From an uncultured Pseudodesulfovibrio sp. (GTDB taxonomy: Bacteria; Desulfobacterota; Desulfovibrionia; Desulfovibrionales; Desulfovibrionaceae): DNA of 64,000 nt. Under the pieces are notes generated by a model. That model was not told where the DNA came from. It searched no databases and saw only the letters and a program-made list of their open reading frames with translations. The first letter of the stretch is position 1, and every line of letters starts with the position of its first letter. This document shows, in pieces, positions 22,940 to 60,738 of the stretch. The position numbers were made by a program, and so were the translations under genes. The stretch covers positions 2,673,518 to 2,737,517 of the forward strand of contig NZ_OY782498.1 in NCBI RefSeq assembly GCF_963677845.1, in the 5' to 3' direction.

Positions 22940-23044
22940 ACCTATGGCCTCCTTGATAATTGCCGCGCCCTATGACGCTCGGCAGTGTTATTCTCGAACG
23001 GAGTGTTCAAGTGCAATTACCATAGCATAAAATTCAATTAAATC

Positions 23045-23066
23045 AATATGTTATATTTAACATATT
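23045..23066. promoter_or_regulatory. Palindromic operator candidate upstream of fdhA (ModE-type)
   Basis: Half-sites AATATGTTA (23045-23053) and TAACATATT (23058-23066) are perfect reverse complements around four bases. It lies between the ModE-like gene's stop and the fdhA start. A site with the same half-sites and spacing lies upstream of modA at 60540-60561, which makes a shared regulator likely. Confidence 0.6.
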
Positions 23067-23085
23067 AAAAGGCGCAGGACATTTT

Positions 23086-23505
23086 TTACTCATACTTTTC
23101 AAGGGAAAAAGGAAAACATTCCTGCCCCTTGGAGAGGGCGTAGGATTCGACATCCTGGTACCATTTATCGAACTCCTTCGCGATACCACATCCGAACTGC
23201 GTAAGGTGGTATCCGGCCCGTCTACTCGTGGCCCTCTCAATGAGTTTTCGACCGATCAATTCCTCAGTGGTTTTGATCTTTCCCCAAGCTCCACGATAGG
23301 ACATTCCCAAAGATTCGGCGGCGGCTTTGAGGGACCCACAACGCTCAACCTGACGAAGCAATTGCAAGCGTCCAAGGCCGAACAAAACACCTTCTTTGGT
23401 TTCGACCCACAAATGCATCCGCATAGTTGGACCCAGCGCGGAAGCGAGGGGCGTTCCAACGCCTGTCGCAGCACCAGCGGATTCGATCATTTCGGATTTC
23501 AGCAT
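23086..23505 (-). CDS. ModE-type winged-helix regulator without molybdate-binding domains
   Basis: 139 residues. A LysR/ModE N-terminal HTH is clear at about 46-100: GRLQLLRQVERCGSLKAAAE, SLGMSYRGAWGKIKT and IERATSRRAGYHLTQFG. Full-length ModE (about 260 residues) has C-terminal TOBE domains that bind molybdate or tungstate; here only a short tail follows, so either another protein senses the metal or this is a different kind of regulator. The ATG at 23505 is fixed by GGAGGT five bases upstream, inside the end of the FmdE-MoeA gene. It probably acts on the palindromes at 23045 and 60540; that is inference from position. Confidence 0.82.
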   Translation of the reverse strand: MLKSEMIESAGAATGVGTPLASALGPTMRMHLWVETKEGVLFGLGRLQLLRQVERCGSLKAAAESLGMSYRGAWGKIKTTEELIGRKLIERATSRRAGYHLTQFGCGIAKEFDKWYQDVESYALSKGQECFPFSLEKYE

Positions 23506-23508
23506 AGC

Positions 23509-25173
23509 TTACCTCCCAAAAGGACATTTGGGGAATGTGCATGCAGTACACTCCATACACATTCCGCCGTTGCCCATCCTCGCGAAATCAGCACGAGCAA
23601 TGGGCAAATCAGCCATAAGCCTGGGCAACAATATGTCCAGACTGGTTGTTTTGTGGAAAAGGGCGCAGGCCGGGACACCCAGCACACGGGCGTTCCCAAT
23701 GCTTCCGACCAAAGTCATGGCACCGGGTAAAACCGGCATTCCGTGCACCATCTCTGTCAGTCCGGCAGCCATCAATCCTTGTCGCGTGACATCATCCGGG
23801 TCCACAGACAAACCGGCGGTGGTGATAATCAAATCACATCCGAGCCTTTCCAATCCACGGACCGCGCCAGCTATTTCACTGGCGTCATCTGGTCGAATCA
23901 ATGTCTCTATAATAGAACCACCAAGATTGACGACTTTGGCTTCCAGGACCTCGGCGAACCGATCCTTGATCAATCCCTTAAAAACTTCGTTGCCAGTGAT
24001 GAGTAAACCGACCTTGGTCTTCTTCAACGGGGCGAGGGAAAACAGCGGGGCATCATTAAGAATGGCGAGTGCCCGCCCGAAAATCGATTGTTCGAGAAAA
24101 AGAGGAATAGCTCTGGTGGCAGCGGCCCTTCTGCCCTTACGAACCAGACTATAGCTATGGCGGCTGGCAGCCATAACGCTACCCAATGAGTTGAAAGCCG
24201 TCAGCAATGGTTCGTTGACCACAAGCATACCGTCCTGCTTGGCCAGCAAATTCACACGCCCTTCACGCGGATCACCCTCAGCCACAATACCGTCACCACA
24301 CATTGCTTTGGCGAAGGTTCTCGCGGCATCATCCTCATGAATGAAACCAGCCGGTGCTTCCTGATCCACATACAGATTAAAACGCCCCATCTGCTGCAAC
24401 CGGCAGACGTCCCCAGCAGTGACCACATGACCACGGGAAAATTCAACGCCCTTTGATTCGCCGGGGACGATGCGCGTCATATCGTGCGCGATAGTCTTGC
24501 CAACGCTTTCTTCAAGCGGAGTTGAAGGGATGGCTGTTTCGATGTCTGTGGCAACCGGCAGACTTCTGTCACCAACATACGGAGAATCCCCGGCGCAGGA
24601 ACGACAAATCGCACCATGAAATTCAGGATAAGCATCACCACAAATCGGACAAAGGGCGATGGTACCCTTGCTCCGTTTGGCAACAACGTCCGGCTTGATC
24701 AACACGTTTTCGACCGACAACATCTCTAGACCATGATCACGAATTTCCCGCCGCAATTCCTTGGAATTCTGGTCCTGCTTGGGCTTGGTTTTCATCAACC
24801 AGCACAATGTGTGTGGGAAACATGTCAGCTTGCTCGGGTCAAGTCGTACCCTAACGCCTTCACCAGTGAATTTATCAAATAATGACACTGCATACACGCC
24901 GGTATTCCGAATCCGTAGCCAGCCGTTGCCGATGGTACAGGGTGTCAACAACTGTACGGCATCAGGCAAGCACCAGGAGGTTTCGGAAATGGCATCAAAC
25001 AACACGCCCTCAGGAATATGTCGCTTGGCTTCTTCAACCATATACCCGCCCAGCAATAACCCGGGGGCAGGATAGTTATGAAACCAGGTGGCGAGGTCCA
25101 CAAACCCGTCAAAGGTAAAAGCCTGCCCCTCTGACAGTACAGGAGTTGTTGTCTCGGTCATTTGAGTATGCAT
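23509..25173 (-). CDS. FmdE-MoeA fusion, molybdenum/tungsten cofactor protein of the fdh operon
   Basis: 554 residues from the ATG at 25173 (GGAGA upstream). The N-terminal part (about 12-190) looks FmdE-like (FDGFVDLATWFHNYPAPGLL, GGYMVEEAKRHIP) and ends in a zinc ribbon CPICGDAY...CRSCAG. The remainder is MoeA-like: domain with TPLEESVGKTIAHDM, then a MoCF-binding fold with LLITGNEVFKG, CDLIITTAGLSVDPDD and MPVLPGAMT. MoeA inserts molybdate or tungstate into adenylylated molybdopterin. The last residues form a cysteine tail, CMECTACTFPKC. It is the first gene of the fdh operon, so it probably supplies metal-loaded cofactor to FdhA. Confidence 0.85.
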   Translation of the reverse strand: MHTQMTETTTPVLSEGQAFTFDGFVDLATWFHNYPAPGLLLGGYMVEEAKRHIPEGVLFDAISETSWCLPDAVQLLTPCTIGNGWLRIRNTGVYAVSLFDKFTGEGVRVRLDPSKLTCFPHTLCWLMKTKPKQDQNSKELRREIRDHGLEMLSVENVLIKPDVVAKRSKGTIALCPICGDAYPEFHGAICRSCAGDSPYVGDRSLPVATDIETAIPSTPLEESVGKTIAHDMTRIVPGESKGVEFSRGHVVTAGDVCRLQQMGRFNLYVDQEAPAGFIHEDDAARTFAKAMCGDGIVAEGDPREGRVNLLAKQDGMLVVNEPLLTAFNSLGSVMAASRHSYSLVRKGRRAAATRAIPLFLEQSIFGRALAILNDAPLFSLAPLKKTKVGLLITGNEVFKGLIKDRFAEVLEAKVVNLGGSIIETLIRPDDASEIAGAVRGLERLGCDLIITTAGLSVDPDDVTRQGLMAAGLTEMVHGMPVLPGAMTLVGSIGNARVLGVPACALFHKTTSLDILLPRLMADLPIARADFARMGNGGMCMECTACTFPKCPFGR

Positions 25174-25191
25174 TATTCTCCAATAGATATT

Positions 25192-25213
25192 ATTGTGCTC
25201 ACTTGAGCACAAT
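25192..25213. promoter_or_regulatory. Perfect palindrome upstream of FmdE-MoeA
   Basis: ATTGTGCTCA (25192-25201) and TGAGCACAAT (25204-25213) are exact reverse complements with a two-base centre. It ends only 18 bases before the ATG at 25173 (minus), where a repressor would block transcription. It is not a Rex or Crp/FNR box by spacing. Confidence 0.55.
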
Positions 25214-25626
25214 TACCCCCTAGGGAGAATGCCAGGATAGACACAACACCTATGAACTTACTCAAGGTTTGACACAACAATAAAAATTAATACCAATATT
25301 TCAAGTCTATGCACACATGGCAACAAATCTACCACCAACTCCAGACCTTAGAGGTCATAAAAAGAAACCAATTAATCTCAGATGGTTGTCTTGCCAAAAA
25401 GCAAAATCAAAAAAAAACAAAATACTGGTGTCAAACCGTTGTTAAGTTGTAAAGATCTTCTTTTTTATATTCCTATATTGAGATTTTGCACAAATTATCG
25501 CCCCAAAAGTACACACACGTTGCTCCTCAATATAAAATAGAACTGTCAATTGTTCATTTTGAAATAATAATTGCGAACCTATTATTCTATGACATGCTGA
25601 CAAGAATGACAGACAGGAGAAATAAA
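25214..25626. other. Divergent intergenic region between the fdh operon and the signalling operon
   Basis: About 410 A+T-rich bases. GACACAAC occurs twice, near 25238 and 25270. I see no small gene. Promoters for both operons are expected here but none stands out. Confidence 0.4.
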
Positions 25627-26736
25627 ATGAAACGGAGCATCATATTTGTATGCATACTTCTCTTTGTAGTATTCTTCGGCCCCAATTTTATGGGCTGTTC
25701 ACAGCCCGAATCTTTACAGATTGGAGCCATTTTAATCCTGACAGATCGAAATGGAAACCAACTTTCAGTTGAGAGGGAAATTCTCGACGGCATGCATATG
25801 GCGATAAAGGAAATCAATGAAGACGGGGGCATTGTTGGAACAAGAATCGAACTGATCTACAAAGACTGTCAAGGAGTCCCGGAACTGGCAAAAAAACAAT
25901 TTCGAGAACTTGCAGCACAATCCCCTGCGGCTGTCATCACCATATATACCCATATAACAGAAGCACTCGTTCCCGAGGCTACAGAGTTGGAAACCATTCA
26001 ACTTGCGACCATGGCAACGGGTGAAGGAATTACAGACAACGGGCCATACTCATTCAGATATTGGCCTCAAGCCTCGGATGAGGGCCGTGCCATATTGCCT
26101 TTGGTGGATAAACTCGGAGTTCGCAAACTCGGGCTGATCAATATTGATAACACTTACGGAAATTCCGTTTCAAATGAACTCTCCAGACTACTGGCAACAA
26201 AAGATGTGACAACACAGAAAATAGTCTACAGCGAGATTACCCCTTCGCTCAACAAAAGGCTTGAAGCGCTTACAGACTGTGACGCCATCAGCTTCACCTG
26301 TTTTCCCAAAGACATTGAGCCACTGGCTAAAATCATACGTCAAAAATATCCAAAGATGCCTTTGATCGGCCCCAACAGCATTTCAAGCCCCCATTACCTT
26401 AAAAATCCAGTTTTTGACGGAATTTATGTTGCGGCTCCACTCGTGTACAACCCGGCCTCCCCTTACCTCGGAAACGTCGGAACAAAATTCGAAAAAACAT
26501 ACGGGCTCCCTTTGAGTCAATACTCAGCAATCGGCTATGATATTATTATTTTACTATCTCAAATTATTAGCAAAAACGGAGCTTCAGCAGAAGCCATTAA
26601 AAATACCTTTGAAGCGGGATTTATTTTCCCAGGGCTCTTCGGCGACGTGGTCAACAATAAAGGGTCACACCATATGACGTACCAACTCATCCCGGCCAAA
26701 ATCAAAAATGAACAGCTGATATATCAAAGGCGCTAG
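25627..26736 (+). CDS. LivJ-type (Peripla_BP_6) substrate-binding lipoprotein
   Basis: 369 residues from the ATG at 25627, with ACAGGAGA just upstream. The signal ends in FMGC, giving a lipidated Cys24. The mature protein matches the type I periplasmic-binding fold for amino acids and amides: IGAILILTDRNGNQLSVERE, DGMHMAIKEINEDGGIVGTRIELIYKDCQG, YTHITEALVPEATE, LGLINIDNTYGNSV and SAIGYDIIILL. No permease or ATPase is nearby; the next gene, starting two bases later, is a histidine kinase. It is therefore more likely a ligand-sensing partner than a transporter component. The ligand is unknown. Confidence 0.85.
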   Translation: MKRSIIFVCILLFVVFFGPNFMGCSQPESLQIGAILILTDRNGNQLSVEREILDGMHMAIKEINEDGGIVGTRIELIYKDCQGVPELAKKQFRELAAQSPAAVITIYTHITEALVPEATELETIQLATMATGEGITDNGPYSFRYWPQASDEGRAILPLVDKLGVRKLGLINIDNTYGNSVSNELSRLLATKDVTTQKIVYSEITPSLNKRLEALTDCDAISFTCFPKDIEPLAKIIRQKYPKMPLIGPNSISSPHYLKNPVFDGIYVAAPLVYNPASPYLGNVGTKFEKTYGLPLSQYSAIGYDIIILLSQIISKNGASAEAIKNTFEAGFIFPGLFGDVVNNKGSHHMTYQLIPAKIKNEQLIYQRR

Positions 26737-26737
26737 T

Positions 26738-28891
26738 ATGTACCTGACCACCCGATTTATCACAGGGATCGTCATCTTTGTCCTCATGCTGTTCAGTCTG
26801 ACAGCCATGGTCTATCAGCAAAGCCACAAGGCCCTCCAAGACCGTGTCGAGCATGACGGGATGCTGGTGGCAAACTTCATATCAAACAACCTCCACAACA
26901 ACTTCACATTCATTGAAGAAGACATGAAACTCTTTCTGATATCTTCGATGAGTGACGTCCCTCCTCATGCCCAATCATTAAAGAATATCTTTACCAACAA
27001 ACTACTCCAGCGTCGTTTCATCCGTTTTTTCGAAACTGAATATGGATACCGTATTTACGAAAAAGTCATGGTTTTCGACAACAAAGGGAATATTATTTCA
27101 TCCACAGATGAAGCGATCGACGAAACATCTCAAAAATTCTGGTGGCAAAAGAGTCTCACTGACAAAAAAGGACTCACTCTTGTACAGGATTTACAAGGGC
27201 AACAAAAATTGAGCATTTCCATAAAAATCCACAATTCAAAAAAAGAAGTCGTCGGTGTCATGCAGGCCGTATGTTCTGTTGCATCTCTTGTTCGTGGCGG
27301 GGGCATGAACCTCAAGAACATGAACGCACGACAAATCGACCTCCTCACCCAAGAAGGGACCATACTTTATTCAACGGCGCTGCATACTCCATTCATGCAG
27401 TTCCCAGACCATCTGTTGCTCGAAAAGATACTCCAAGGTGAACGAACATTTGTTCGAACAAATGCCAACGGAATCAAAGAGCTAATAATAGCTCTTCCTC
27501 ATTCTCATTTGTCCTCAGAACACTTTACCAAAATTTTGCTCCTTTACCTTGATTACAACACCCTGTTTCAACCGGTCTTACAACTACGTCTCTGGATTTG
27601 GGCAGGGGCTTTTGCTCTGATATTGATCGCAGGCATCTTCTTCATTCTCGTCAGGAACATCACTATCCAAGAAGCAAACGCTTCCGCTCTCATCAAAAAT
27701 GAAAAAATCCTCCAAAGTATCCTCACCGGCATTGAAGCGCTGGTCATATTCGTTGACAAAGAAACACACACGATCACATGGGCAAACTCCATGAGCAATG
27801 AACTTCTCGGGATCCCTGCAGAGGAAATGATCGGCGAAAAATGTTACAAATACATCTGCCATTGCGAACAAGGCAGACAAAAAAATGAATGCCCTGCCGA
27901 CAACAAAAAAACCCTACACACCGAATTTTCTCTACAAAAAAGAAACAAAACCATCATCCCCATAATGAAAACCGTACTGAACGCGCAAATAGAAGATCGG
28001 CCTCATTATATTGCCATAATATTCGATATCACCCACAGGAAATCCGTTGAACGCCAACTCTTGCAAGCACAAAAACTTGAAAGTGTCGGCAATCTGGCTG
28101 CAGGGATAGCACATGAAATCAACACGCCTTCACAATACATCTCTGAAAATCTCAGATTCATCAACACAGCCATGAAATCACTGGTACACTTTTACGATAT
28201 ATTCCAACAAACCAGTCTGAAAGGGACGCAACCGTCTCACTCGACTCTCGTCAAGCAACTCGAAGCGCATGGCAAGGACGCCGACATGGACTATTTGCTT
28301 GAAGAGGTCCCGCAGGCCTTGTCTCAATCTCTGGAAGGAATCCAGAACATCACAGACATTGTCCAAGCTATGAAACGCTTTGCTCATCCGGGCAACCGGG
28401 AAAAATTGATGGCAGACATCAACGACTCTTTAAAAAAAACCAGTGTCGTATGCCGAAACGAGTGGAAATATCATGCGAAATTGGTCTATGATCTTGATGA
28501 GAATCTCCCCATGGTGGAATGTCGAATCAATGACATCAACCAAGTATTTCTCAACCTTATCGTCAATGCAGCACATGCTGTTTCGGCGAAACACAAGGAG
28601 ACTGAAGAAAAAGGGTCGATTATACTGACGACTTTTCAACAAAGGGATAACGTCTTTATCGTGGTCAGTGACACAGGAATGGGAATACCCAACTCGCTTC
28701 TGAATCGAATATTCGACCCTTTTTTTACCACCAAAGAGGTGGGCGCGGGCACAGGACAAGGACTCGCAATCAGCTATTCAATAATTGTCGATGGGCACGA
28801 CGGGACAATTACTGTTGAAAGCGACGAAGGCATAGGTACCCAATTCACCATTCGACTGCCCATAAAGACTCAAGGAGACTCCGATGGATGA
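26738..28891 (+). CDS. Membrane sensor histidine kinase with PAS domain
   Basis: 717 residues. Transmembrane segments at about 7-27 and 285-307 enclose a periplasmic sensory region of roughly 260 residues, Cache-like by layout. A PAS domain follows (about 325-445, WANSMSNELLGIPAEEMIGEKCYKY, with several cysteines). The H-box is GNLAAGIAHEINTPSQY, then the N-box NQVFLNLIVNAAHAV, G1 DTGMGIP and G2 GTGQGLA. It presumably reads the LivJ-type lipoprotein encoded upstream and phosphorylates the response regulators encoded downstream. Its stop overlaps the start of the next gene by 8 bases. Confidence 0.9.
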   Translation: MYLTTRFITGIVIFVLMLFSLTAMVYQQSHKALQDRVEHDGMLVANFISNNLHNNFTFIEEDMKLFLISSMSDVPPHAQSLKNIFTNKLLQRRFIRFFETEYGYRIYEKVMVFDNKGNIISSTDEAIDETSQKFWWQKSLTDKKGLTLVQDLQGQQKLSISIKIHNSKKEVVGVMQAVCSVASLVRGGGMNLKNMNARQIDLLTQEGTILYSTALHTPFMQFPDHLLLEKILQGERTFVRTNANGIKELIIALPHSHLSSEHFTKILLLYLDYNTLFQPVLQLRLWIWAGAFALILIAGIFFILVRNITIQEANASALIKNEKILQSILTGIEALVIFVDKETHTITWANSMSNELLGIPAEEMIGEKCYKYICHCEQGRQKNECPADNKKTLHTEFSLQKRNKTIIPIMKTVLNAQIEDRPHYIAIIFDITHRKSVERQLLQAQKLESVGNLAAGIAHEINTPSQYISENLRFINTAMKSLVHFYDIFQQTSLKGTQPSHSTLVKQLEAHGKDADMDYLLEEVPQALSQSLEGIQNITDIVQAMKRFAHPGNREKLMADINDSLKKTSVVCRNEWKYHAKLVYDLDENLPMVECRINDINQVFLNLIVNAAHAVSAKHKETEEKGSIILTTFQQRDNVFIVVSDTGMGIPNSLLNRIFDPFFTTKEVGAGTGQGLAISYSIIVDGHDGTITVESDEGIGTQFTIRLPIKTQGDSDG

Positions 28892-30137
28892 CCGGATTCG
28901 CATACTCTTCGTGGATGATGAACCCAATGTGCTCGCTGCGCTTAAGCGCATGCTCAGAAGCAAACACAAAGAATGGGAAATGCTCTTTGTGGAAAACGGC
29001 GCAGATGCAATCTCCCTCATAAAACAAAACGCGTTCGACATTATTGTTTCCGACATTCGTATGCCAGGAATTGATGGAGGAGAACTGCTCAATCGCGTGA
29101 AGGACCTGTCTCCCAAAACAATCCGAATCGCGCTCTCTGGACAGGTAGACATGACCGAGGTGATGCAAAGCATCAGGGCTGTACACCAATACATTTCAAA
29201 ACCATGTGAAGCCGATTACCTTATCGACAGAATAGAAGGAGCACTTCACTCTCAGGCGGTATTGACCGACCAACGAATGCTGGAAATGGTCACAGAAGTT
29301 GAAGCTTTGCCGGTCATCCCTGAAGTCTTTCAAAACACGGAGGCCGAGCTACGAAAAAAGGAACCCTCCATAGATATTATCGCAGGATACATCACACAGG
29401 ATGTTGGACTTGTGACCAAGATTATCAAACTGATCAACTCTCCGTACTTCGGACTGCCCACGCAAGTTGATTCGGTAGAGAAAGCCATCACCATGCTTGG
29501 ACTCGACACCATACGAGCTCTTATTCTATCAACACATCTTTTCACCATGTATGGTGACAACACCTTGCCGGGCTTCTCGCTCTCCCTGCTTTGGGAACAC
29601 AGTTTCAGGGTCTCCAACATCGCTCGCCTCATCGCTAGTTATGAAAAAGAACCACAAAAGGTCATCATCCAATGCCGAATGGCCGGACTTCTTCACGACG
29701 TGGGAAAACTGGTCATGGCCAACTCCTTCCCCAAAAAATACAGGGAAGTACTTACACATGTTTCACTCCCCGGCGGCCTGTCTGTCCACTCAGCAGAAAA
29801 AAAAGTCTTCGGGACAACTCATGCTGAAATCGGCGCGTATCTGATGGGCCTATGGGGCATGTCCAACAACGTGGTGCATGCCATAGGGCATCATCACGGT
29901 TTTAACAAACCCGACGGGAGTGTTGCCATGTACCTGTCAATTGCCAACACCATTGACCACAACTTCGTCGTCTTCAACGACCAATATGAACGTATCAAGT
30001 TCGAAAAAGGCCTAGCCCCGATAATTCTGGATCAAAACAAATTGGCTCTTTGGGTGCCCCACATTAATGATAATTGGCCAGGAGATTATCCTCTCACTGA
30101 TTTTAACCCTGAAATCATCAACGAACTGATCGCATAG
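28884..30137 (+). CDS. Response regulator with HDOD output domain
   Basis: 417 residues. Receiver domain (1-120) with the acidic pair in FVDDEP, phospho-acceptor Asp in IIVSDIRMPG and the conserved KPC lysine. Output is HDOD (about 135-340): ALPVIPEVFQNTE, ITQDVGLVTKIIKLINSPYFGLP, IDSVEKAI-like VDSVEKAITMLGL, and GLLHDVGKLVMANSF. HDOD domains are HD-related and usually non-enzymatic; they tie two-component input to second-messenger or chemotaxis outputs. Co-transcribed with the kinase (8-base overlap). Confidence 0.9.
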   Translation: MDDRIRILFVDDEPNVLAALKRMLRSKHKEWEMLFVENGADAISLIKQNAFDIIVSDIRMPGIDGGELLNRVKDLSPKTIRIALSGQVDMTEVMQSIRAVHQYISKPCEADYLIDRIEGALHSQAVLTDQRMLEMVTEVEALPVIPEVFQNTEAELRKKEPSIDIIAGYITQDVGLVTKIIKLINSPYFGLPTQVDSVEKAITMLGLDTIRALILSTHLFTMYGDNTLPGFSLSLLWEHSFRVSNIARLIASYEKEPQKVIIQCRMAGLLHDVGKLVMANSFPKKYREVLTHVSLPGGLSVHSAEKKVFGTTHAEIGAYLMGLWGMSNNVVHAIGHHHGFNKPDGSVAMYLSIANTIDHNFVVFNDQYERIKFEKGLAPIILDQNKLALWVPHINDNWPGDYPLTDFNPEIINELIA

Positions 30138-30146
30138 GAGTCAAGT

Positions 30147-51004: not shown

Positions 51005-51016
51005 GGAGACAAAGCA

Positions 51017-51584: not shown

Positions 51585-51604
51585 CCCCTCACCTTAATCA
51601 ATTC

Positions 51605-51645
51605 GGCGGCGTTATGACATCTCGACATAACGCCGCCTTCTCTTT
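51605..51645 (+). terminator. Terminator of ydbH-ynbE-ydbL
   Basis: Perfect 12-bp arms GGCGGCGTTATG (51605-51616) and CATAACGCCGCC (51626-51637), then TTCTCTTT. Confidence 0.88.
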
Positions 51646-51656
51646 ACTCTCATCAC

Positions 51657-52559: not shown

Positions 52560-52568
52560 CCGTCAGAT

Positions 52569-53120
52569 CTACTTGATTACCATGTGGATATTTTCATCCG
52601 CACTTTTGTCAAAGTCTGCCAGCATATCGAACCGGTCTACCATGACTTCATCGAGTGTTGTCCAATCGGAACACATCGACTCATCCGTGGTGGGTGTCTG
52701 CAACTTGACTGCTGACACCACATCCATGTCCAACGTTGTGACATAGGTCCGAACCAGCTTACAGTAATGGCTCTGAAAGATGGTTTTGGGAGGATAACTC
52801 TTGATGCTGTTAGCAGGAGCATCAAGGGTGAAACCGATCAGGTCCTCGAACTCGACGCGGGGCATTTTTGAAACAAGAATGGCTGATTTATCTTTTGCCC
52901 GAAACAAATAGCCTCGAAAATCCGTCCCCTTGAACGAGCGCTTCACAAAAGAATCATATGTATATTCACTGCCTATTTCCACGATCACGGACTGACCGGT
53001 TTCAGCAACCGTAAAGATCACGCGGTTGTCATTCCGTGCTTCAACCACCGGACTCTTGGTCGCACAACCGACAACAAGAATCAGGAAAAGAAGGGGGAAT
53101 ACTATCTTGAAACATTTCAT
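52569..53120 (-). CDS. Lipoprotein of unknown function
   Basis: 183 residues. Signal with lipobox LVVGC (Cys19); the mature part has RVIFTVAETGQSVIVEIGSEYTY and two further cysteines (HYCKL and SMCSDW). I do not recognise the family. It is followed upstream on the minus strand by a glycine-zipper lipoprotein 10 bases away, so they form one transcript. Confidence 0.72.
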   Translation of the reverse strand: MKCFKIVFPLLFLILVVGCATKSPVVEARNDNRVIFTVAETGQSVIVEIGSEYTYDSFVKRSFKGTDFRGYLFRAKDKSAILVSKMPRVEFEDLIGFTLDAPANSIKSYPPKTIFQSHYCKLVRTYVTTLDMDVVSAVKLQTPTTDESMCSDWTTLDEVMVDRFDMLADFDKSADENIHMVIK

Positions 53121-53130
53121 GGTCGTCTCC

Positions 53131-53559
53131 TTATTTCCAGCCGATCACTTCGTACCCTTTCTCTCTCAGGCACTTGTCGACAAAATTCTTGTGAATGGAA
53201 GCCGGGTCGCCAGATTTGGCGGCCTCATACACAGTGGAACCGGCGGCAGCGGCTCCGGCTGAAGCACCAGCCGTTCGCAACACGTCGTTCCCCATGATCG
53301 CACCAAAAACAGCTCCGGCCGCGGCGGCGACACCCGCTGAAGTCGCAACATTCTTCGCGGATTCACCAGAATCCCGAGCCGTTGCGCCTGCGGCCTCGGC
53401 CTTCATGATACAATCATCAATATCAGCCTGCGCTACCTGCATTCCCACGGAGTCCAAATGATCATTGGGGTACAGTACAGGTCGTTTTGGCCCACAGCCC
53501 GCAGCAAAGAGCAACAGGGAAGCCATTCCCAGCAACAACAAAAATCGCACTTGTCTCAT
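53131..53559 (-). CDS. Glycine-zipper lipoprotein
   Basis: 142 residues from the ATG at 53559 (GGAGGT upstream). Lipobox FAAGC (Cys22). The middle has repeated small residues, SAGVAAAAGAVFGAIMGN and TAGASAGAAAAGSTVYEAA, a glycine-zipper of the kind found in membrane-associated envelope lipoproteins. DCIMKAE before and DKCLREKGYEVIGWK after complete a typical small outer-membrane lipoprotein. Function unknown. Confidence 0.78.
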   Translation of the reverse strand: MRQVRFLLLLGMASLLLFAAGCGPKRPVLYPNDHLDSVGMQVAQADIDDCIMKAEAAGATARDSGESAKNVATSAGVAAAAGAVFGAIMGNDVLRTAGASAGAAAAGSTVYEAAKSGDPASIHKNFVDKCLREKGYEVIGWK

Positions 53560-53728
53560 CTCGCAACCTCCAAAAATAATCAATGAGATCATACTGTATA
53601 CATCGCTCGGGTCAATGGCTAAAGTGCTATTGTACGACCAAAGGTTGCACAACCTTGCAGGCTCATATGAAAATCGGTATATAGACAAAGTCTAGAAACC
53701 AAGAGTCACTCTGAGTAAGGAGTTTTCC

Positions 53729-54286
53729 ATGCACCGTTTTCTCCCCATATTTCTGCTGCTCGCTACGCTAGCGTTCGGCGCAATGGCTTCCGGCTGTGCC
53801 GTTTATGACGTGGCAGTAGAAGAGCGTAACGCAGGCGACTGGGCCGACGACAAAACAATTTCCTTTGTCATTGAAAAGGACTTTCTGGCCGATGACCAAG
53901 TCAAATATCTCGACTTTGACGCATACAGCTACGAAGGTCACGTCTACATTATCGGTGAATACGAAAATCGGGCTCAGGTCGATCAAGCCGTCAAAATTGC
54001 CAAGGCCGTCAAAGGTGTCCGTACTGTCACAACGTACGTTCTGCCCAAACGAGCTCATGACTACTGCGGCACAACAGACAGTCTGGATATATATGCCAAA
54101 CTCAAAGAGAAGCTGATCAGCGACAAGAACATCTGGTCCACCAACATCGAATTTGAAGTGGTTCAGTGCAATGTCGTCATGGTCGGCCTACTCGGCAGCA
54201 GTAACGAAATCTCGAGAGCCATCAGCCATGCGAAGAGCGTTCCCGGCGTTCGCAACGTCAAATCGTTCCTCAAGGTCAAGAGGTAG
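53729..54286 (+). CDS. BON-domain lipoprotein
   Basis: 185 residues. Lipobox MASGC (Cys23). Two BON domains (about 40-110 and 115-185): DAYSYEGHVYIIGEYENRAQVDQAV, VKGVRTVTTYV, and then NIEFEVVQCNVVMVGLLGSSNEISRAI, VPGVRNVKSFLKV. It resembles DolP/OsmY, which act at the outer membrane and periplasm and bind anionic phospholipid. The NlpC lipoprotein gene follows 6 bases later. Confidence 0.87.
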   Translation: MHRFLPIFLLLATLAFGAMASGCAVYDVAVEERNAGDWADDKTISFVIEKDFLADDQVKYLDFDAYSYEGHVYIIGEYENRAQVDQAVKIAKAVKGVRTVTTYVLPKRAHDYCGTTDSLDIYAKLKEKLISDKNIWSTNIEFEVVQCNVVMVGLLGSSNEISRAISHAKSVPGVRNVKSFLKVKR

Positions 54287-54292
54287 ACAATC

Positions 54293-54820
54293 ATGGGCGA
54301 CGCGATGAAAACACACTCCATGGCTCGCCCTTTTCTTCTATTCTCGGCACTCTGCATTCTTGCCGTGACCATGCTCTCTGGGTGCGGGACAAAATCTCCT
54401 ACGCCCATATCACCCGATTCAGTCGTCCACAGTCAACCAGCCTCGCCAAAGGCTGCCTCGATCATTCGCACGGCGCGAGTATTGGTGGGGTATCCATACA
54501 AATGGGGTGGACACATGCCAGAAACAGGATTCGACTGTTCAGGACTTATCTGGTTCGTGTACCGACAAAACGGCATCAACCTGCCCCGCGTATCGTGGCA
54601 GCAGTTCGGCACGGGAGCATCGGTCAAACGAAGTGACATCCGTCCCGGTGATCTCGTTTTCTATGATGTGAAAAAAACAGGGAAGTCCCTGCATGTCGGC
54701 ATTGTTACGGACCGCGCCACCTTTGTGCATGCTCCCAGCTCCGGTAAACAGGTTATGGAATCAAGTCTGAACTCACCATACTGGGCACAGCACTATTTGG
54801 GAGCACGCCGCGTTCTCTAA
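54293..54820 (+). CDS. NlpC/P60 cell-wall hydrolase lipoprotein
   Basis: 175 residues; a start at 54305 is possible. Lipobox LSGC. NlpC/P60 domain (about 60-175): LVGYPYKWGGHMPETGFDCSGL with nucleophile Cys, RVSWQQFGTG, DLVFYDVKK, LHVGIVTD with the catalytic His, and FVHAPSSG. It cleaves a peptide bond in peptidoglycan stem peptides. Its stop overlaps the convergent DUF697 gene by four bases. Confidence 0.92.
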   Translation: MGDAMKTHSMARPFLLFSALCILAVTMLSGCGTKSPTPISPDSVVHSQPASPKAASIIRTARVLVGYPYKWGGHMPETGFDCSGLIWFVYRQNGINLPRVSWQQFGTGASVKRSDIRPGDLVFYDVKKTGKSLHVGIVTDRATFVHAPSSGKQVMESSLNSPYWAQHYLGARRVL

Positions 54821-56202
54821 TCTTCGTCAGCTTTTTCTTTCGGCGTACGGTTCTTGCCGGGGACAATATTCCGAATTGTCCGAGCGGTCTTCTCAACAGA
54901 TCTGCCGGCCGAACGAATAAAATTCTTGGCCTTATCCGCTGCTGCGTCAACCTTTTCCACGGCAGGAGCAAACTCGCGCGTAACTCTTTGCGTAGATTGC
55001 TCGACCTTATGGATTGATCGCTTTACACCGTTAGCGGCCTTATCCACCACTTTCTCGGCGCTACGGGCAACAGACTTGGCTCCGTCTCCGACCGACCGGG
55101 CAGAGCCTTTGACACCATCACCCACGGCCTTCGCAGATCCCTTCACGCCTTGTTTTACGGCTCTGGCCGACCCCTTCACACCACGCCCGACAGACTTCGC
55201 GGAGTTGGAAACGCCACGCCCCACGGATTTGGCTCCCGACCCGACCGCTCCGGCTGTGCCCGTCACAGACGAGCCCATGGTTTTGACCGCTTTCTTCGCA
55301 CCTTTCTTTACGGCGCCAGTCGATCCCTTAATTAAAAGCTTGGTCACCTGAGTCACGGTTTCACTGCTGATGGACATAAACATTTTAGCGGCCTCAAGGG
55401 TCGCAGACCGACGCATAAGGCCTTTGGAATCCAAATCCAGGCTCATGTAATTCCGAGCGACGATACCGCACCGCATGGCGAGAAGCGCATTGGTGGAACC
55501 GCTCAAAATCGACGTGGTCACGGTCCCGGCAATGGCCTCGGCACCGGGCATGGCCCCCACCGCTGAACTGGCAATCATCGGTCCCATCAATTCATGGATA
55601 TATTCTTCGATGCCAAATTCTTCGATGCTCCCGGCCAGAAAAGAAGTCGCCGCGATATTGGCGTAAAGATTGATAAGCTCCCGATAATGCGGACGTTGAT
55701 TGTACAGCTTGGATATCCGCCACGCCAGACGCGAGATGAGGAACAGAACCACCAGAGAATCAAGCCGCCCGTTTTGAGAAACAGCCGTGCCAACAAACAC
55801 ACGCTTGGCCGTGCTTCGAATTTCTTGATCCGCCCGGTCTCGCAACACAGCAAGCCCGGTTTCCAAATCTGATTCGTCAGCTACACGAACATCGGCATTT
55901 TTCAGAATACGATTTTTCCCAAGTCGTTTCACGAGCGCCTGCCGAAACTTCACCATTTCTTCAGGCGAAGGTTCGGCATGAACCATCATGGGCCTCGGCC
56001 TCAACAAGGCAGTCGCTACCAGCCAACCGAATGAAACAACAACGATCAACAAAAGTCCCCAGAACACCCACGGGGTTGCAGCCACGTTGATGCGCCCGGC
56101 AAAATCGGACAGCCCGACGATACAATCATATATGAAGGCGAAAAACGCCCCTATGACAATGACTCCAATTAGGGTCAAAAAATTCTTCATCTGTTTGGAC
56201 AT
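54817..56202 (-). CDS. DUF697-type membrane protein with alanine/lysine-rich repeat tail
   Basis: 461 residues from the ATG at 56202 (GGAGG upstream). Two membrane helices near the N terminus (about 8-28 and 43-64), then a DUF697-like helical region (about 100-275: RVFVGTAVSQNGRLDSLVVLFLISRLAWRISK, NIAATSFLAGSIEEFGIEEYIHEL). From about residue 300 it becomes a repeat of KSVGRGVKGSA-type 11-residue units, predicted amphipathic like LEA or apolipoprotein helices. Function is unknown; the tail could lie on a membrane surface. Confidence 0.78.
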   Translation of the reverse strand: MSKQMKNFLTLIGVIVIGAFFAFIYDCIVGLSDFAGRINVAATPWVFWGLLLIVVVSFGWLVATALLRPRPMMVHAEPSPEEMVKFRQALVKRLGKNRILKNADVRVADESDLETGLAVLRDRADQEIRSTAKRVFVGTAVSQNGRLDSLVVLFLISRLAWRISKLYNQRPHYRELINLYANIAATSFLAGSIEEFGIEEYIHELMGPMIASSAVGAMPGAEAIAGTVTTSILSGSTNALLAMRCGIVARNYMSLDLDSKGLMRRSATLEAAKMFMSISSETVTQVTKLLIKGSTGAVKKGAKKAVKTMGSSVTGTAGAVGSGAKSVGRGVSNSAKSVGRGVKGSARAVKQGVKGSAKAVGDGVKGSARSVGDGAKSVARSAEKVVDKAANGVKRSIHKVEQSTQRVTREFAPAVEKVDAAADKAKNFIRSAGRSVEKTARTIRNIVPGKNRTPKEKADED

Positions 56203-56323
56203 GCATTCCTCCACGAACAAGATAAGGCCATGCCTTCAAATGGCAAAGCAAGAACTTGTCCGATACATTTCAAAACCCTGTAAGCAAAACACCCCGGCTG
56301 TTCAAGAATGTGCAATAAAAACA

Positions 56324-56373
56324 CAAAAAAAGGTCAAACCCTCGACATACTCGCCGTACGCAAGGGCTTGACC
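56324..56373 (-). terminator. Terminator of the 56400 gene
   Basis: On the minus strand GGTCAAGCCCTTG (56373-56361) pairs with CGAGGGTTTGACC (56344-56332) with wobble pairs, then seven T. Confidence 0.8.
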
Positions 56374-56399
56374 GTTATGAAACAATGCAGTGAACGTTT

Positions 56400-56855
56400 T
56401 TACTCTTCGGGAGTCAGCGGCTTATAATACATACCAATCTTGATGCGGTCAGTGGAGTACTGGCTCTTGAGCTTGATCTTGAGCTCTTCATTTTCCCAAC
56501 GGTAAACATCCCAATTGTCGATTTTTTTATGATCTGGAACACCATAGGAGTCCATAAGCGTGGTAACCACTTTCTTGACGTCTTTGGCTTTGTCGATCTC
56601 AATCAATGCCGTATAGAGCTTACCACCTAAAAATCCATAGGTGACCTCCCCCTGCTCCACTTCAAAAATACCACACGGGTCCACCTTGGTGACAGAATAA
56701 TACTTCACACCGTCCACGGTGTGGGAAAAAGTAATCTGTTCCACAGTAGAAATGGGTTTTCCCCAGGGAATGGCATTACACTCATCCGCAGCATATGCGG
56801 ATACAGAGAATGCTACGGCCAGCAGGGCAGTGAAAACAAATACGCGTATTTTCAA
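56400..56855 (-). CDS. Exported hypothetical protein
   Basis: 151 residues with a TTG start at 56855, chosen because AAGGAG lies seven bases upstream and the signal peptide (KIRVFVFTALLAVAF ending SAYAA) begins there. The mature protein (about 125 residues) has CNAIPWGKPISTVEQITF, VDPCGIFEV, TYGFLGGKLYTALIEI and a two-cysteine core. I do not recognise the family. It is monocistronic with its own terminator. Confidence 0.68.
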   Translation of the reverse strand: MKIRVFVFTALLAVAFSVSAYAADECNAIPWGKPISTVEQITFSHTVDGVKYYSVTKVDPCGIFEVEQGEVTYGFLGGKLYTALIEIDKAKDVKKVVTTLMDSYGVPDHKKIDNWDVYRWENEELKIKLKSQYSTDRIKIGMYYKPLTPEE

Positions 56856-56920
56856 ACCAGTCTCCTTGGTCTTTGGTTCATTCCATGACAGGGCCATACT
56901 CACGGAGAGCACAATCCGTG

Positions 56921-57154
56921 TCAACTGTTGGTTTTCGTTCCCTTATAGGTAAACGCCTTTTTATCCATGGTATAATACGACCCGCGATCAATACCCACAG
57001 CTTTTCCGCAAGGACAAAACACCTTGCCGTCCCGTTCTTCCATATTCCACACCTTTTTGATGCGATCCTTGTGGCAACGGTGCACTTCTCCTTGGCCGAT
57101 CTTATAATACTTCCAGAGTTTGCGACGACAGGCTGAACATTTGAGTGTGAGCAT
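56921..57154 (-). CDS. Small zinc-ribbon-like protein
   Basis: 77 residues from the ATG at 57154. Cysteine pairs LKCSACRRKLWKYYKIG and, further on, VFCPCGKAVG suggest a zinc ribbon. A longer frame upstream is not supported by a ribosome site. Function unknown; short proteins of this kind occur in sulfate reducers. Confidence 0.62.
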   Translation of the reverse strand: MLTLKCSACRRKLWKYYKIGQGEVHRCHKDRIKKVWNMEERDGKVFCPCGKAVGIDRGSYYTMDKKAFTYKGTKTNS

Positions 57155-57210
57155 GTCCAAATGATAGCGCACTGAAAGACAACCGTAAACGCCTTGTCTC
57201 CAGATCACAG

Positions 57211-57242
57211 AAAAAGGCCATGCAGACTCACTGCATGGCCTT
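57211..57242 (-). terminator. Terminator of the mod operon
   Basis: Perfect arms GGCCATGCAG (minus, 57240-57231) and CTGCATGGCC (57225-57216) with a 5-base loop, then five T. It lies about 30 bases after the trmO-like stop. Confidence 0.88.
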
Positions 57243-57270
57243 GATAAAACATTTTTCAACGCAACCGGGC

Positions 57271-57765
57271 TTACTCGGATTTTGCCACAAAACGATGATC
57301 CGATCGCAATGTCTCGGCCTTATCCGCATTTTGATCCAACCAACCAAAACGATCTGCCGGAGCAACGTCGAACTTGGCAACATAGGGTTTGATATCCAGA
57401 AGAGGCGTTCCATCGAGAACATCAATACCACGAATTCGCAGGATATTACCTTCAATGGACTCCAACCGGACCACGGACATGCCGATCATGTTTGGTCGTC
57501 GAGGGGCCCGCGTGGAGAATAATCCGCGTGGTACTGTGTCCATGAACGGCGTAACCTTGAGCTTGAAGTCGCTGTTCTTGTGCAGGTGATACAATAGATG
57601 GATATGAGAGAATCCATCCAAGTCCTCCAACCCTTCCACGAACTCTTCATTCAACCGAATTTCACCGACCACATCTTTGGCCCCGGTGGGCTGGATAGGC
57701 ATATCGTCCAAGGACGTAAACGGTGTATGAATCACACCAATAGGAGTAAAAACGACGCTATTCAT
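57271..57765 (-). CDS. TrmO/TsaA-family SAM-dependent methyltransferase
   Basis: 164 residues from the ATG at 57765 (GGAGAG upstream). Blocks of the TsaA beta-barrel family: PIGVIHTPFTSLDDMPIQPTGA, LEDLDGFSHIHLLYHLHK, RGLFSTRAPRRPNMIGMS and ILRIRGIDVLDGTPLLDIKPY. TrmO methylates t6A37 of certain tRNAs. It ends the mod operon, 20 bases after modC, an association seen in other anaerobes; relevance to metal uptake is unclear. Confidence 0.87.
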   Translation of the reverse strand: MNSVVFTPIGVIHTPFTSLDDMPIQPTGAKDVVGEIRLNEEFVEGLEDLDGFSHIHLLYHLHKNSDFKLKVTPFMDTVPRGLFSTRAPRRPNMIGMSVVRLESIEGNILRIRGIDVLDGTPLLDIKPYVAKFDVAPADRFGWLDQNADKAETLRSDHRFVAKSE

Positions 57766-57785
57766 ATGAGGCTCTCCGCTGTGTT

Positions 57786-58847
57786 TCAGGCAAGTGTTAC
57801 GTTTGCTGCCTTGACGCCAAGGCACATGGTGTCATCCCGGTGAATATCCAACTCCTGAAATGCGCTGGCAGTAATGACTGCTGGAATGCGCACACCCTGC
57901 GACCGGAACGACAAGTGATACAGGATGCCTTCCTGATAATAGTCTTCAAGCGTCGCGTCCACAAGGTTCTGAATAGATGTCTTTTGCGGTCGATCACGGA
58001 AAACCATTACATTTTCAGGCCGCAGAAACACACGGACATTGTCACCGCTCTGGGCAGACTCAATAGAATTCAAGACCAAACCACCGACGTCAACCTGACA
58101 CTGGCCGTTAGCTCCGGGCTGAACTGTCCCTTCAAAAACACTCGCCCCCACAAAATCAGCGACAAACCGATTGCTCGGCCTATTGAACACATCATGCGTG
58201 GTGGCATGCTGTTCCAATCGCCCATTTCGCATGATGGCAACCTTATCAGCCAGCGCCCAGACGTCATCCATATCATGAGTAATATGCAGAACGGTAATAT
58301 CACGCTCACGCATAATCCGACGTAAAAGAGCGCGCGTGGTGTGTCGAGTTTGCGGATCCAGAGCCGAAAGGGGTTCATCCATAAGCAAAAGACGAGGTTC
58401 GACCACCAAAGCACGAGCCAAAGCTGCGCGTTGCTGCTCCCCGCCAGATAATGTTGTGGGTTTGCGATGCAATACATGGGTGATGTTCAGGGCTTCGGCC
58501 ATCTCCATGATCTTCGCCTTTCGGCTCACCTTGTCTCGATCAACTTTTTTCAGACCATACTCAATATTTTGAAACACGTTCTTGTGAGGCAGGAGAGCAT
58601 AGTCCTGATATACGATGCCAATACGCCGTTTTTCCGGCGGGTCATCCGTGATATCGCGCCCTTCCAGAAACACCCGACCTTTGGACGGTTTGTAAAACCC
58701 GATAATACACTCGAGCAAAATAGTCTTTCCGGAGCCGGTCGGTCCCATGACGGTCAGATATTCGCCACGTTCAAATTCCAGAGACACACCTTTGAGCGAG
58801 AATTCTCCGAGATCGATATGCATGTCTTCAACGCGCAGGAAACTCAT
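57786..58847 (-). CDS. modC: Molybdate/tungstate ABC transporter ATP-binding protein
   Basis: 353 residues. Walker A GPTGSGKT (35-42), signature LSGGEQQR, Walker B LLLMDEPLSALD and HITHDM. The C-terminal third carries a TOBE-like region (GASVFEGTVQPG, VFLRPENVMVF and TLEDYYQEGILYHL) that can bind oxyanion. It overlaps modB by four bases (ATGA). Molybdate versus tungstate is not decided. Confidence 0.92.
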   Translation of the reverse strand: MSFLRVEDMHIDLGEFSLKGVSLEFERGEYLTVMGPTGSGKTILLECIIGFYKPSKGRVFLEGRDITDDPPEKRRIGIVYQDYALLPHKNVFQNIEYGLKKVDRDKVSRKAKIMEMAEALNITHVLHRKPTTLSGGEQQRAALARALVVEPRLLLMDEPLSALDPQTRHTTRALLRRIMRERDITVLHITHDMDDVWALADKVAIMRNGRLEQHATTHDVFNRPSNRFVADFVGASVFEGTVQPGANGQCQVDVGGLVLNSIESAQSGDNVRVFLRPENVMVFRDRPQKTSIQNLVDATLEDYYQEGILYHLSFRSQGVRIPAVITASAFQELDIHRDDTMCLGVKAANVTLA

Positions 58848-59626
58848 AATTTCGCCTCCGTTTTTTCAAAAATGAAAATGGCGATGAAGGACACACCTAT
58901 CAGTAGGATTCCACTGGTCAAGGCCATGCCCATGTTGCCGTAAGAGATGTTCAAATAGAGGGTAATGGGGAGAGTTTCTGTCCGCATGTACGAACCACCC
59001 GCCAGAATCAACACAGTGCCGAACGTTCCGATACACCGGGCAAAGGCGATGACTGTTGAAGCGAGAATACCGCTCCCGGCCAAAGGAATCGAGACTCGAA
59101 GGAACGTCTCGAACTGCGTATAGCCGAGACTTCTGGATACGAATTCCATGCGAGGATTGATATAGTCAAACGTGGACTTCATGATCCGCACCGAATATGG
59201 CAGGGCCGTAAAAAACTGGGCCGCAACAATACCTTTCTTGGTAAAGACAAAATCCAACCCTACGGAACTCAAAGCCTTGCCAATAGGAGTCTTCCCAAAC
59301 AGCAAGAGCAGGCACAAGCCGAGAACCAATTCTGGGAAGGCCACAGGAAGATCAATAATTGTCTTCACCACGCCCTTACCCCAAAAATCCAGCCGGGAAA
59401 GAGTGTACCCAATAGGAAGCGCAAACAGCATGACCAACACCGTGGACACAAACCCCGTGACCAACGAAAGACGCAATGAAAGCTGCATCTCCTCACTCCA
59501 GATATTGGTCATAATATCTTCAAAGGTCGGCACAGTCAGCAGCGCTCCTATCGCGCACAGCAGAAAGAACGTAATGAAAAAGGAACTGAAAAGAAGCCCC
59601 GCTTTGAACGGCGTTACTTTGTGCAT
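58844..59626 (-). CDS. modB: Molybdate/tungstate ABC transporter permease
   Basis: 260 residues. About six membrane helices. The EAA loop docks ModC: RSLGYTQFETFLRVSIPLAGSGILASTVIAFARCIGTFGTVLILAG. The start overlaps the end of modA by 13 bases and the end overlaps modC by four, so translation of the operon is coupled. Confidence 0.93.
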   Translation of the reverse strand: MHKVTPFKAGLLFSSFFITFFLLCAIGALLTVPTFEDIMTNIWSEEMQLSLRLSLVTGFVSTVLVMLFALPIGYTLSRLDFWGKGVVKTIIDLPVAFPELVLGLCLLLLFGKTPIGKALSSVGLDFVFTKKGIVAAQFFTALPYSVRIMKSTFDYINPRMEFVSRSLGYTQFETFLRVSIPLAGSGILASTVIAFARCIGTFGTVLILAGGSYMRTETLPITLYLNISYGNMGMALTSGILLIGVSFIAIFIFEKTEAKL

Positions 59627-60393
59627 GCTTCAAAGCCCCACTTCTCCCAAACAACAAGCCCTTCGGCAGAGGCTATATAATCATTGAGTTCAAGAGCCAG
59701 GGGATTATCTTTTGCAGAAACATGGACGGCGGTCGGAATTGTCTTGATCATATTGCGTTTGTCATCAATACGCACAACCTGCACCTTGCCCTTGCCCTCG
59801 GCCCATGTGGTAACATCAAGCCAGTTAATGGCGGCATCAGCCTGTTCCAGAGCAGTATAAATAAGAAGCTGGTTACAGGTAGGGGCGTACACAACCACGT
59901 TCGGTGTCACTTGCTCCCACATCCCGGCCTTGCTCAACATCTTCTTGGACACTTTGCCAATAGCGGCAGCCTTGGGGTCTCCCAAAGCGACCTTGACGCC
60001 CGGACGGGCCAGATCATCCAAAGTCTGAATATTCGCAGGATTGCCACCCGGCACGACCATAACAGGCACATGCTTGACGATGGGCTTCATGCTCGGCTCA
60101 TACACCCAGCCGTTTTTGATGGCATCGCGTGTGTATTTCTCGGCACCGGGAATAAAGACATCACATGTTTGTCCCACGCCAAGCATTCCAAAAATTTCAC
60201 CGGAACTGCCATAATGCACATCGATATGTACATCGTGCGATTTCTCGAAGTTCTGACGAAGCTCTTCCATCGGCTTCATCAACCCGGCTCCGGCAAAAAT
60301 ACGCAAATCATCGGCATATGCATTGGTAAACATGCCGGTAACGGCAAGGCACAAGAAAAAGACAAAAGTCATGGGCAAAAAACGGCGAGACAT
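59614..60393 (-). CDS. modA: Molybdate/tungstate-binding periplasmic protein
   Basis: 259 residues from the ATG at 60393, with GGAG seven bases upstream; a GTG start at 60399 is less likely. Signal peptide to YADD (about 28). ModA features: LRIFAGAGLMKPMEELRQNF, VHYGSSGEIFGMLGVGQTCDVFIPG, VMVVPGGNPANIQTLDDL, VALGDPKAAAIGK and AINWLDVTTWAEG. It binds the oxyanion tetrahedrally in the periplasm. The upstream region carries a candidate ModE-type operator at 60540-60561. Confidence 0.93.
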   Translation of the reverse strand: MSRRFLPMTFVFFLCLAVTGMFTNAYADDLRIFAGAGLMKPMEELRQNFEKSHDVHIDVHYGSSGEIFGMLGVGQTCDVFIPGAEKYTRDAIKNGWVYEPSMKPIVKHVPVMVVPGGNPANIQTLDDLARPGVKVALGDPKAAAIGKVSKKMLSKAGMWEQVTPNVVVYAPTCNQLLIYTALEQADAAINWLDVTTWAEGKGKVQVVRIDDKRNMIKTIPTAVHVSAKDNPLALELNDYIASAEGLVVWEKWGFEACTK

Positions 60394-60738
60394 GACCACA
60401 CTCCAGAAAAGTTACAGATACAGTAGTTCGGCTCCATTCCGCCATGAAACAGACCAATAAGACCGCCGTACCGACTTCCCTCAAATTCGACCTCGGCCCA
60501 GACTACGGACTACGCAAAAGTACACAGACCTGCGCGCTTAATATGTTACGAAGAACATAATGCATCCCTTCATAATGAGCAAGAATTTCAGCCCTACACA
60601 GGAGAATGACACGAACCTCAAAGGTATGGATTAGCAAAAGAAAAAAATGAGGAAGGAAGTATAGGCTATAGCGACTCTGAACGTTTTTGCATAATAGCAC
60701 CAACCCCATTTATGATTGAACTATCTCATCTTTCATTT
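60394..60738. other. modA promoter region
   Basis: About 345 bases between modA and otsA (both minus). The only strong element is the palindrome at 60540-60561, about 147 bases upstream of modA. No gene seen. Confidence 0.5.
60540..60561. promoter_or_regulatory. Palindromic operator candidate upstream of modA
   Basis: ATATGTT (60541-60547), six bases, AACATAA (60554-60560). Compared with the site at 23045-23066, 16 of 22 positions agree and the spacer length is identical. A ModE-type regulator is the obvious candidate. Confidence 0.55.

Follow-up and report, generated by a model that had tools for sequence, protein, structure and literature searches.

Among the closest described systems is ModE of Escherichia coli with its modABC operator, which resembles the case studied here in its ModE-type HTH, for some of the sites in arms of the type TTATRT/AYATAA placed 8 bp apart, and in that ModE is annotated as a dual regulator, just as both activation and repression are proposed below. 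The E. coli modA operator is an exact fit to TTATRT-N8-AYATAA, a pattern with a single match (≤2 mismatches) in 3 kb. The E. coli system differs in that the proteins here have no TOBE domains, the arms read TTATGY rather than TTATAT, the HTH gene often lies beside an FmdE/MoCF gene, and sites also occur at fdh and aor genes. In 2013, Kazakov reportedly described TunR as a Mo/W regulator in Desulfovibrio; a homolog of this regulator of sulfate reducers is encoded in the present genome, whereas the DNA-binding domain, motif and targets discussed here are different. The ModE-like protein of Campylobacter jejuni is not known to have a TOBE domain. This protein, PDB 2ijl and the single-domain ModE homologs of Desulfovibrio are, like the proteins here, HTH-only or short and linked to Mo/W genes. 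Passages of PMC545781 report such homologs in Desulfovibrio, state that no E. coli-type sites were found for them, call their Mo-sensing mechanism not clear, and assign the motif cgGTCACg-N14-cGTGACCg to Desulfovibrio ModE; a C. jejuni ModE-like protein is reported in a title cited in PMC7759655. According to passages citing Rajeev 2019, tupR/DVU3193 of D. vulgaris regulates tupABC (PMC10102598) and the tungsten aldehyde oxidoreductase is under TaoR control (PMC11980592). TaoR is, as in the present case, linked to aor and tup; it differs in its HTH_17 and PBP-like domains, which were not found together at any place in this genome.

We analyzed a window of 64,000 nucleotides (the whole stretch of DNA under study) from an uncultured Pseudodesulfovibrio sp., which contains the following features:

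17350..18135, minus strand: fdhD-like accessory gene (profile match under cut-off)
18153..19121, minus strand: fdhE-like accessory gene (profile match under cut-off)
19152..19886, minus strand: fdhB-like iron-sulfur subunit (TIGR01582, under cut-off)
19898..22939, minus strand: fdhA, formate dehydrogenase catalytic subunit (TIGR01553), split by an in-frame TGA into two ORFs of the same frame
23019..23046, minus strand: putative fdhA promoter, TTGATT (23041-23046), 16 bp, TATGGT (23019-23024), with TGC before TATGGT
23045..23066, no strand: fdhA palindrome, sub-type TRTGYTA-N4-TAACAYA, adjoining the putative fdhA -35 hexamer
23086..23505, minus strand: 139-aa single-domain ModE-like HTH protein, the proposed regulator (Pfam HTH_1 at 45-105)
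23509..25170, minus strand: FmdE, zinc finger and MoCF_biosynth fusion gene, adjoining the HTH gene
25192..25213, no strand: third palindrome, ATTGTGCTCA-CT-TGAGCACAAT, about 25 bp upstream of the FmdE/MoCF ATG
57786..58847, minus strand: modC/wtpC-type ATPase (best matches under cut-offs)
58844..59626, minus strand: modB/wtpB-type permease (TIGR01581 above cut-off)
59614..60393, minus strand: modA, molybdate-type substrate-binding protein (TIGR01256 above cut-off)
60540..60561, no strand: modABC palindrome, upstream of modABC
60554..60582, minus strand: putative modA promoter, TTGCTC (60577-60582), 17 bp, TATGTT (60554-60559)

The palindromes at fdhA and at modABC both hold up as real: they are conserved and switch-like, and the genes at which they lie use or import Mo or W. 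The first, 23045-23066 (AATATGTTATATTTAACATATT), lies roughly 20 bp beyond the HTH stop codon and about 105 bp ahead of the fdhA ATG, and its inverted repeat (9 + 4 + 9) is perfect; the second, 60540-60561 (AATATGTTACGAAGAACATAAT), is an imperfect repeat with half-sites ATATGTT and AACATA and a 6-bp spacing equal to that at fdhA. The original prediction had described these shared half-sites and their identical six-base spacing, and the sequences agree with it, as do the neighbours it named, with profile matches for the HTH protein, for fdhA and for a ModA/ModB/ModC-type transporter. Its list of two palindromes was correct for both and incomplete, since it missed the third, at 25192-25213 in the fdh cluster. 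That site precedes the FmdE/MoCF-HTH-fdh cluster, where relatives have modA-type sites (the likely FmdE/MoCF ATG is at 25170; the mechanical ORF begins at 25212). TATGTT-N6-AACATA occurs twice in the window, and these are its only exact occurrences in the 3.70-Mb genome. ModA and ModB exceed curated NCBIfam cut-offs (modA; Mo_ABC_porter), and among the best 25 matches listed for ModC, none reaches its cut-off, the top one being WtpC. The in-frame TGA of fdhA (22373-22375) presumably encodes selenocysteine. An RNA leader at modA was rejected, as no Rfam match was found in 56000-64000 up to E 1; at gathering scores, the Rfam scan of the whole window gave two tRNAs and nothing else.

The 139-aa protein has a LysR/ModE-type HTH (Pfam HTH_1), of the winged ModE type, and matches TIGR00637 ModE_repress (E 2.5e-15; 56.3 bits, under the cut-off of 98.5) and the PDB ModE structure 1b9m (E 4.7e-6). 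The two C-terminal TOBE domains of ModE are absent: no profile match to TOBE was found in the protein, just as had been predicted, and the sole TOBE places in the genome belong to the TunR-like protein. With an HTH only and adjoining Mo/W genes, it has the features of a single-domain ModE-like regulator. The genome encodes two such paralogs, this fdh-linked protein and a tup-linked one of 128 aa, and either could therefore be the binder; the local protein is a candidate by association only. Both keep an SYRxAW stretch.

Conservation of the sites was examined in relatives, where some genomes appear under two names (L035/G065, L036/L056/L144/G004, L037/G080, L039/G060 and L040/G078). A survey of every pair of neighbouring HTH and fdhA genes in 48 stretches found a site, of one type or the other, upstream of fdhA in 20 of 21 regions (one genome counted twice), with none in L152. 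Upstream of modA, a site is recognisable in all eight orthologous promoters, one of them with a degenerate arm and three rows being nearly identical; in one promoter, the arms show the symmetric change TATGCT..AGCATA. The window palindromes belong to a wider motif, TTATGYY-N6-RRCATAA, which the fdhA and modA sites of the window miss by two and one outer bases, respectively. The TTATGTY-type sites of the genus also fit TTATRT-N8-AYATAA, and TTATGCY sites differ from it by one base per arm.

This wider motif was found at 103 places in 36 genomes of the genus, against 5 for the reversed pattern. After near-identical copies were dropped, 74 distinct sites (listed places and those with loci) were examined, 60 of which lie within 1.6 kb of Mo/W genes and 51 directly upstream of them, compared with 1 of 20 control loci; no reference Mo/W gene is near the other 14. 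In the genome itself, 32 places were found at 0-1 mismatch, 14 of them intergenic. The expectation that such a scan would converge on Mo/W genes was borne out for six of the 14, which precede fdhA1, fdhA2, fdhE2, modA, aor and a moeA-like gene, and not for the other eight, whose genes have no apparent Mo/W function (binomial P for 6/14, 2e-7 to 3e-5, a post hoc value hinging on an assumed 2-5% share of Mo/W promoters). Two exact sites, at 1980393 and 3647697, fall within ORFs and were counted as chance. Altogether, members of the motif family in this genome are found at fdh, fdhE/D, aor, moeA-like, FmdE/MoCF and mod genes. Taken as a whole, the interpretation given in the original prediction is partly supported. 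Its common Mo/W regulon, as a prediction from sequence, has good support from the clustering in this genome and in the genus, while the letter-for-letter identity of the two window sites, on which the proposal was built, is partly coincidence because in relatives the sites diverge into two sub-types.

The motif goes with genes for single-domain ModE-like HTH proteins and not with tunR genes, whose motif is different. Of 67 HTH matches, the 55 with fetched flanks were counted, and the motif lies within 350 bp (≤1 mismatch) of 19 of them and of none of the other 36; 119 permuted half-sites gave a mean of 0.8 at HTH genes, with three near-identical ones reaching 13, 17 and 21 and the others at most 3. 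The TTATGYY-type motif was found at 14/30 HTH genes versus 1/30 tunR genes, and GTCACG-N14-CGTGAC at 0/30 versus 19/30. Contrary to the assignment made in passages of PMC545781, the latter motif is thus found here with tunR genes, and TTATGYY-N6-RRCATAA with HTH genes. Six genomes with TunR and without the HTH have no motif sites (control 2), seven with the HTH and without TunR show a weak excess of 9 sites (control 5), and 12 with neither have 5 sites (control 7).

Overall, the palindromes are probably operators of single-domain ModE-like HTH proteins, be it the 139-aa protein, its 128-aa paralog or both. Conservation, Mo/W-gene enrichment, linkage to HTH genes, the different tunR motif and the positions relative to promoter-like hexamers were all observed by computation; from these we infer DNA binding, the direction of regulation and a metal signal. 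The targets of ModE-like HTH dimers would be inverted repeats of the form RTGYY-N6-RRCAY, in which the ModE box is varied while its arm spacing is kept. The fdhA site adjoins a -35-like hexamer, and the regulator would accordingly be an activator of formate dehydrogenase; an arm of the modABC site coincides with the putative -10 hexamer TATGTT (60554-60559, minus strand), so it would repress import; and since a site lies just before FmdE/MoCF-HTH, it would repress its own operon. The regulon would also take in the second fdh operon with its fdhE, the aor-tup cluster and the moeA-like gene. Consensus sigma-70 scans gave no promoter in the fdhA or modA region; the promoter reading is therefore based on conserved hexamers. 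At fdhA, these are TTG in 15/15 and TAnnnT in 13/15 aligned rows, comprising the window, L035-L041 and seven family rows picked for a visible site rather than a full sample; the modA TTG hexamer is present in 7/7 same-genus rows and absent in G020 (L085).

Because the fdhA sites (11 typed) have 2-4 mismatches to TTATGYY-N6-RRCATAA and the modA sites (six typed) 0-1, with the five modA sites besides that of the window differing from the fdhA type by 2-4, different regulators are possible. There may be two related operator types, the fdhA type being read by the fdh-linked HTH protein and the TTATGYY type (modA, aor, moeA, fdh2 and FmdE) by the tup-linked paralog, and the match between the window sites would then be a chance of letters. 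This alternative, to which the drift into sub-types lends weight, has a minor though real share of the probability. Against it, one and the same fdh-linked HTH gene lies between sites of the two types in 7/7 loci selected for an upstream TTATGYY site (one downstream fdhA-type site with a mismatch), in three family loci (L145, L149 and L156) the site between the HTH gene and fdhA is itself closer to the TTATGYY type, and the SYRxAW stretch is common to both paralogs.

Binding by a TaoR-type regulator (HTH_17 plus PBP-like domain) or a CRP/FNR-type factor is improbable. Passages of PMC11980592 and PMC10102598 do place aldehyde oxidoreductase and tupABC genes under TaoR and tupR/DVU3193, and the HcpR motif TTGTGA-N6-TCACAA, given in a passage of PMC545781, likewise has a 6-bp spacing. 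However, TaoR was rejected since no place in this genome matches both domains (E 1e-4 and 0.01), and six taoR-like genes elsewhere, with a PBP-like match and, judged by eye, an excisionase-like N-terminus, have no such site (≤1 mismatch) in 6-8 kb. TunR, with its integrase-like domain and two TOBE domains, is a very improbable binder even though a TunR-like protein is encoded in the genome: GTCACG-N14-CGTGAC is present at tunR and modA2 and at neither window site, and 29/30 tunR genes have no palindrome within 350 bp (1 mismatch), on which grounds it was rejected. Chance palindromes in AT-rich intergenic DNA are a negligible explanation, since, although the window has no strong excess of ATATGTT-N6-AACATA at ≤2 mismatches (4 strand matches versus 1.17 expected; at least 4 in 6/100 shuffles), TATGTT-N6-AACATA occurred in 0 of 100 dinucleotide shuffles and the sites are conserved in relatives and enriched at Mo/W genes.

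If single-domain ModE-like proteins read these operators, sensing of the metal would have to fall to a partner or to the HTH domain, given that no TOBE domain was found. The FmdE/MoCF gene and the HTH gene are neighbours in the window and also in 11 of the 40 family loci that were fetched; in three of these 11, the stretch has no fdh. TTATGYY-N6-RRCATAA (≤2 mismatches) is present in 12/17 FmdE upstream regions and in none of the other five; a separate comparison was given 11 sequences, eight with an FmdE match and five picked for having a site. It is conceivable, though doubtful, that the FmdE/MoCF protein is the missing sensor, binding Mo/W-pterin cofactor via its MoCF domain and switching the HTH protein; the regulon would then read finished cofactor rather than free oxyanion.

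In the titles, abstract beginnings and some passages covered by a literature search, no paper was found that assigns this motif to these HTH proteins. Single-domain ModE-like proteins gain a candidate operator and a candidate regulon of W/Mo enzymes and importers, and a dual-mode design, in which activation and repression would be combined, is offered as testable.

Both palindromes of the original prediction were found at their predicted positions in the window sequence. The pattern TATGTT-N6-AACATA has just these two exact matches in the 64-kb window, where 100 shuffles gave none, and the 3.70-Mb genome as a whole contains no others. The relevant features are:

23045-23066, palindrome upstream of fdhA
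23086-23505, minus strand, 139-residue single-domain ModE-like protein (HTH)
25192-25213, third element, perfect palindrome, ~25 bp before the FmdE/MoCF ATG
60540-60561, palindrome upstream of modABC
Minus-strand fdh cluster, in order: FmdE/MoCF fusion, HTH, fdhA, fdhB, fdhE, fdhD

The HTH protein matched one Pfam family, HTH_1, and its closest named relative is from Pseudodesulfovibrio sp. OB3 (96% identical), so the bacterium is probably a Pseudodesulfovibrio too. ModA and ModB scored above curated cut-offs, and the best matches of ModC below. fdhA appears as two ORFs around an in-frame TGA (22373-22375), presumably a selenocysteine codon. The genome also encodes another modA (25% identical) and a 128-aa paralog of the single-domain ModE-like protein (39% identical), whose gene shares a cluster with aor, a moeB-like gene and tupA. 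A further protein, integrase-like by eye with two TOBE domains, we take to be TunR-like.

Across the 36 genus genomes, TTATGYY-N6-RRCATAA was found at 103 places (reversed pattern, 5). Of 74 distinct sites examined against our own set of Mo/W reference genes, 60 had such a gene within 1.6 kb and 14 had none; 51 lay directly upstream of one, and 1 of 20 control loci lay near one. In the window's own genome, TATGTY-N6-RACATA has 5 exact places, two inside ORFs, versus 0 for the reversed pattern. Allowing ≤1 mismatch gives 32 places (control, 22), 18 of them within ORFs. Of the 14 in intergenic DNA, six precede Mo/W genes (fdhA1, fdhA2, fdhE2, modA, aor and a moeA-like gene), and the neighbours of the other 8 have no evident Mo/W function. 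Between the fdhA2 site and fdhE2 lies a transposase-like ORF, recognized by eye (L135:5884-6912, own genome ~363.9-364.9 kb). In 3/3 clusters looked at, aor has its site, and the tup-linked HTH gene is preceded by one that is half-degenerate. Given the genus enrichment and own-genome sites, a common Mo/W regulon that would include both window palindromes is well supported.

The window modA has orthologs in 7/36 genus genomes, its own included, and in G020 of a 59-genome family sample (61% identity). The palindrome is present in all 8 promoters, of which three are almost identical in sequence; in one promoter an arm is degenerate, and in one the two arms have changed symmetrically. Between palindrome and modA (60400-60535), several but not all orthologs share TTTGAGGGAA.TCGG..CGGCG; Rfam gave no match for this stretch.

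Among 48 stretches, with one genome counted twice, a site of either type was present in 20 of 21 HTH-fdhA regions checked, the locus L152 having neither. Sites in relatives follow TRTGYTA-N4-TAACAYA at fdhA and TTATGYY-N6-RRCATAA at modA. The two own-genome copies are each close to both sub-types, so the letter-by-letter agreement between them is partly a coincidence. Aligned relatives show TTATGYY-type sites at the place of the third element, and one is present in 12/17 FmdE upstream regions (≤2 mismatches). Upstream of this palindrome (~25230-25280), 8 aligned rows share GTGYCAAACCT..A..AAGT..TTGTG. An fdhA-type site follows the HTH gene in 7/7 loci picked for a TTATGYY site before it, and loci L145, L149 and L156 have sites nearer the TTATGYY type between HTH and fdhA. 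Because both types flank the HTH gene and TTATGYY-like sites occur at fdhA, the arrangement argues for one regulatory unit, without proving one protein.

TaoR (HTH_17 plus PBP-like, according to an excerpt of PMC11980592) is an unlikely binder: the own genome has no such candidate, and the palindrome is missing from all six taoR-like genes examined in other genomes. GTCACG-N14-CGTGAC, assigned to Desulfovibrio ModE in an excerpt of PMC545781, lies here instead upstream of modA2 and tunR (own-genome pieces, L132:7401, L133:7705), a separate TunR-like circuit. Within 350 bp, it was found at 0/30 HTH and 19/30 tunR genes, and the palindrome at 14/30 HTH versus 1/30 tunR genes. The E. coli modA operator fits TTATRT-N8-AYATAA exactly. 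Sites numbered 52 in 34 genomes with TunR and HTH (control 10), 9 in 7 with HTH only (control 5), 0 in 6 with TunR only (control 2) and 5 in 12 with neither (control 7). The palindrome accompanies 19/55 HTH genes, where permuted half-sites average 0.8 and near-identical permutations score 13-21. A single-domain ModE-like HTH protein is the probable binder.

Consensus promoter scans returned none at either site. In an alignment of 15 rows, which include 7 picked for a visible site, TTG directly follows the fdhA palindrome in every row; the palindrome abuts TTGnnn-N16-TAnnnT, the second hexamer recurring in 13/15. Its centre would lie at about -43, an activator position. In 7/7 genus rows a TTG hexamer precedes the modA arm TATGTT by 17 bp, a spacing absent from G020; the arm would then serve as the -10 hexamer, a repressor position. 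The FmdE/MoCF gene adjoins HTH in the window and in 11/40 fetched family loci, and its product is a candidate partner for the signal.
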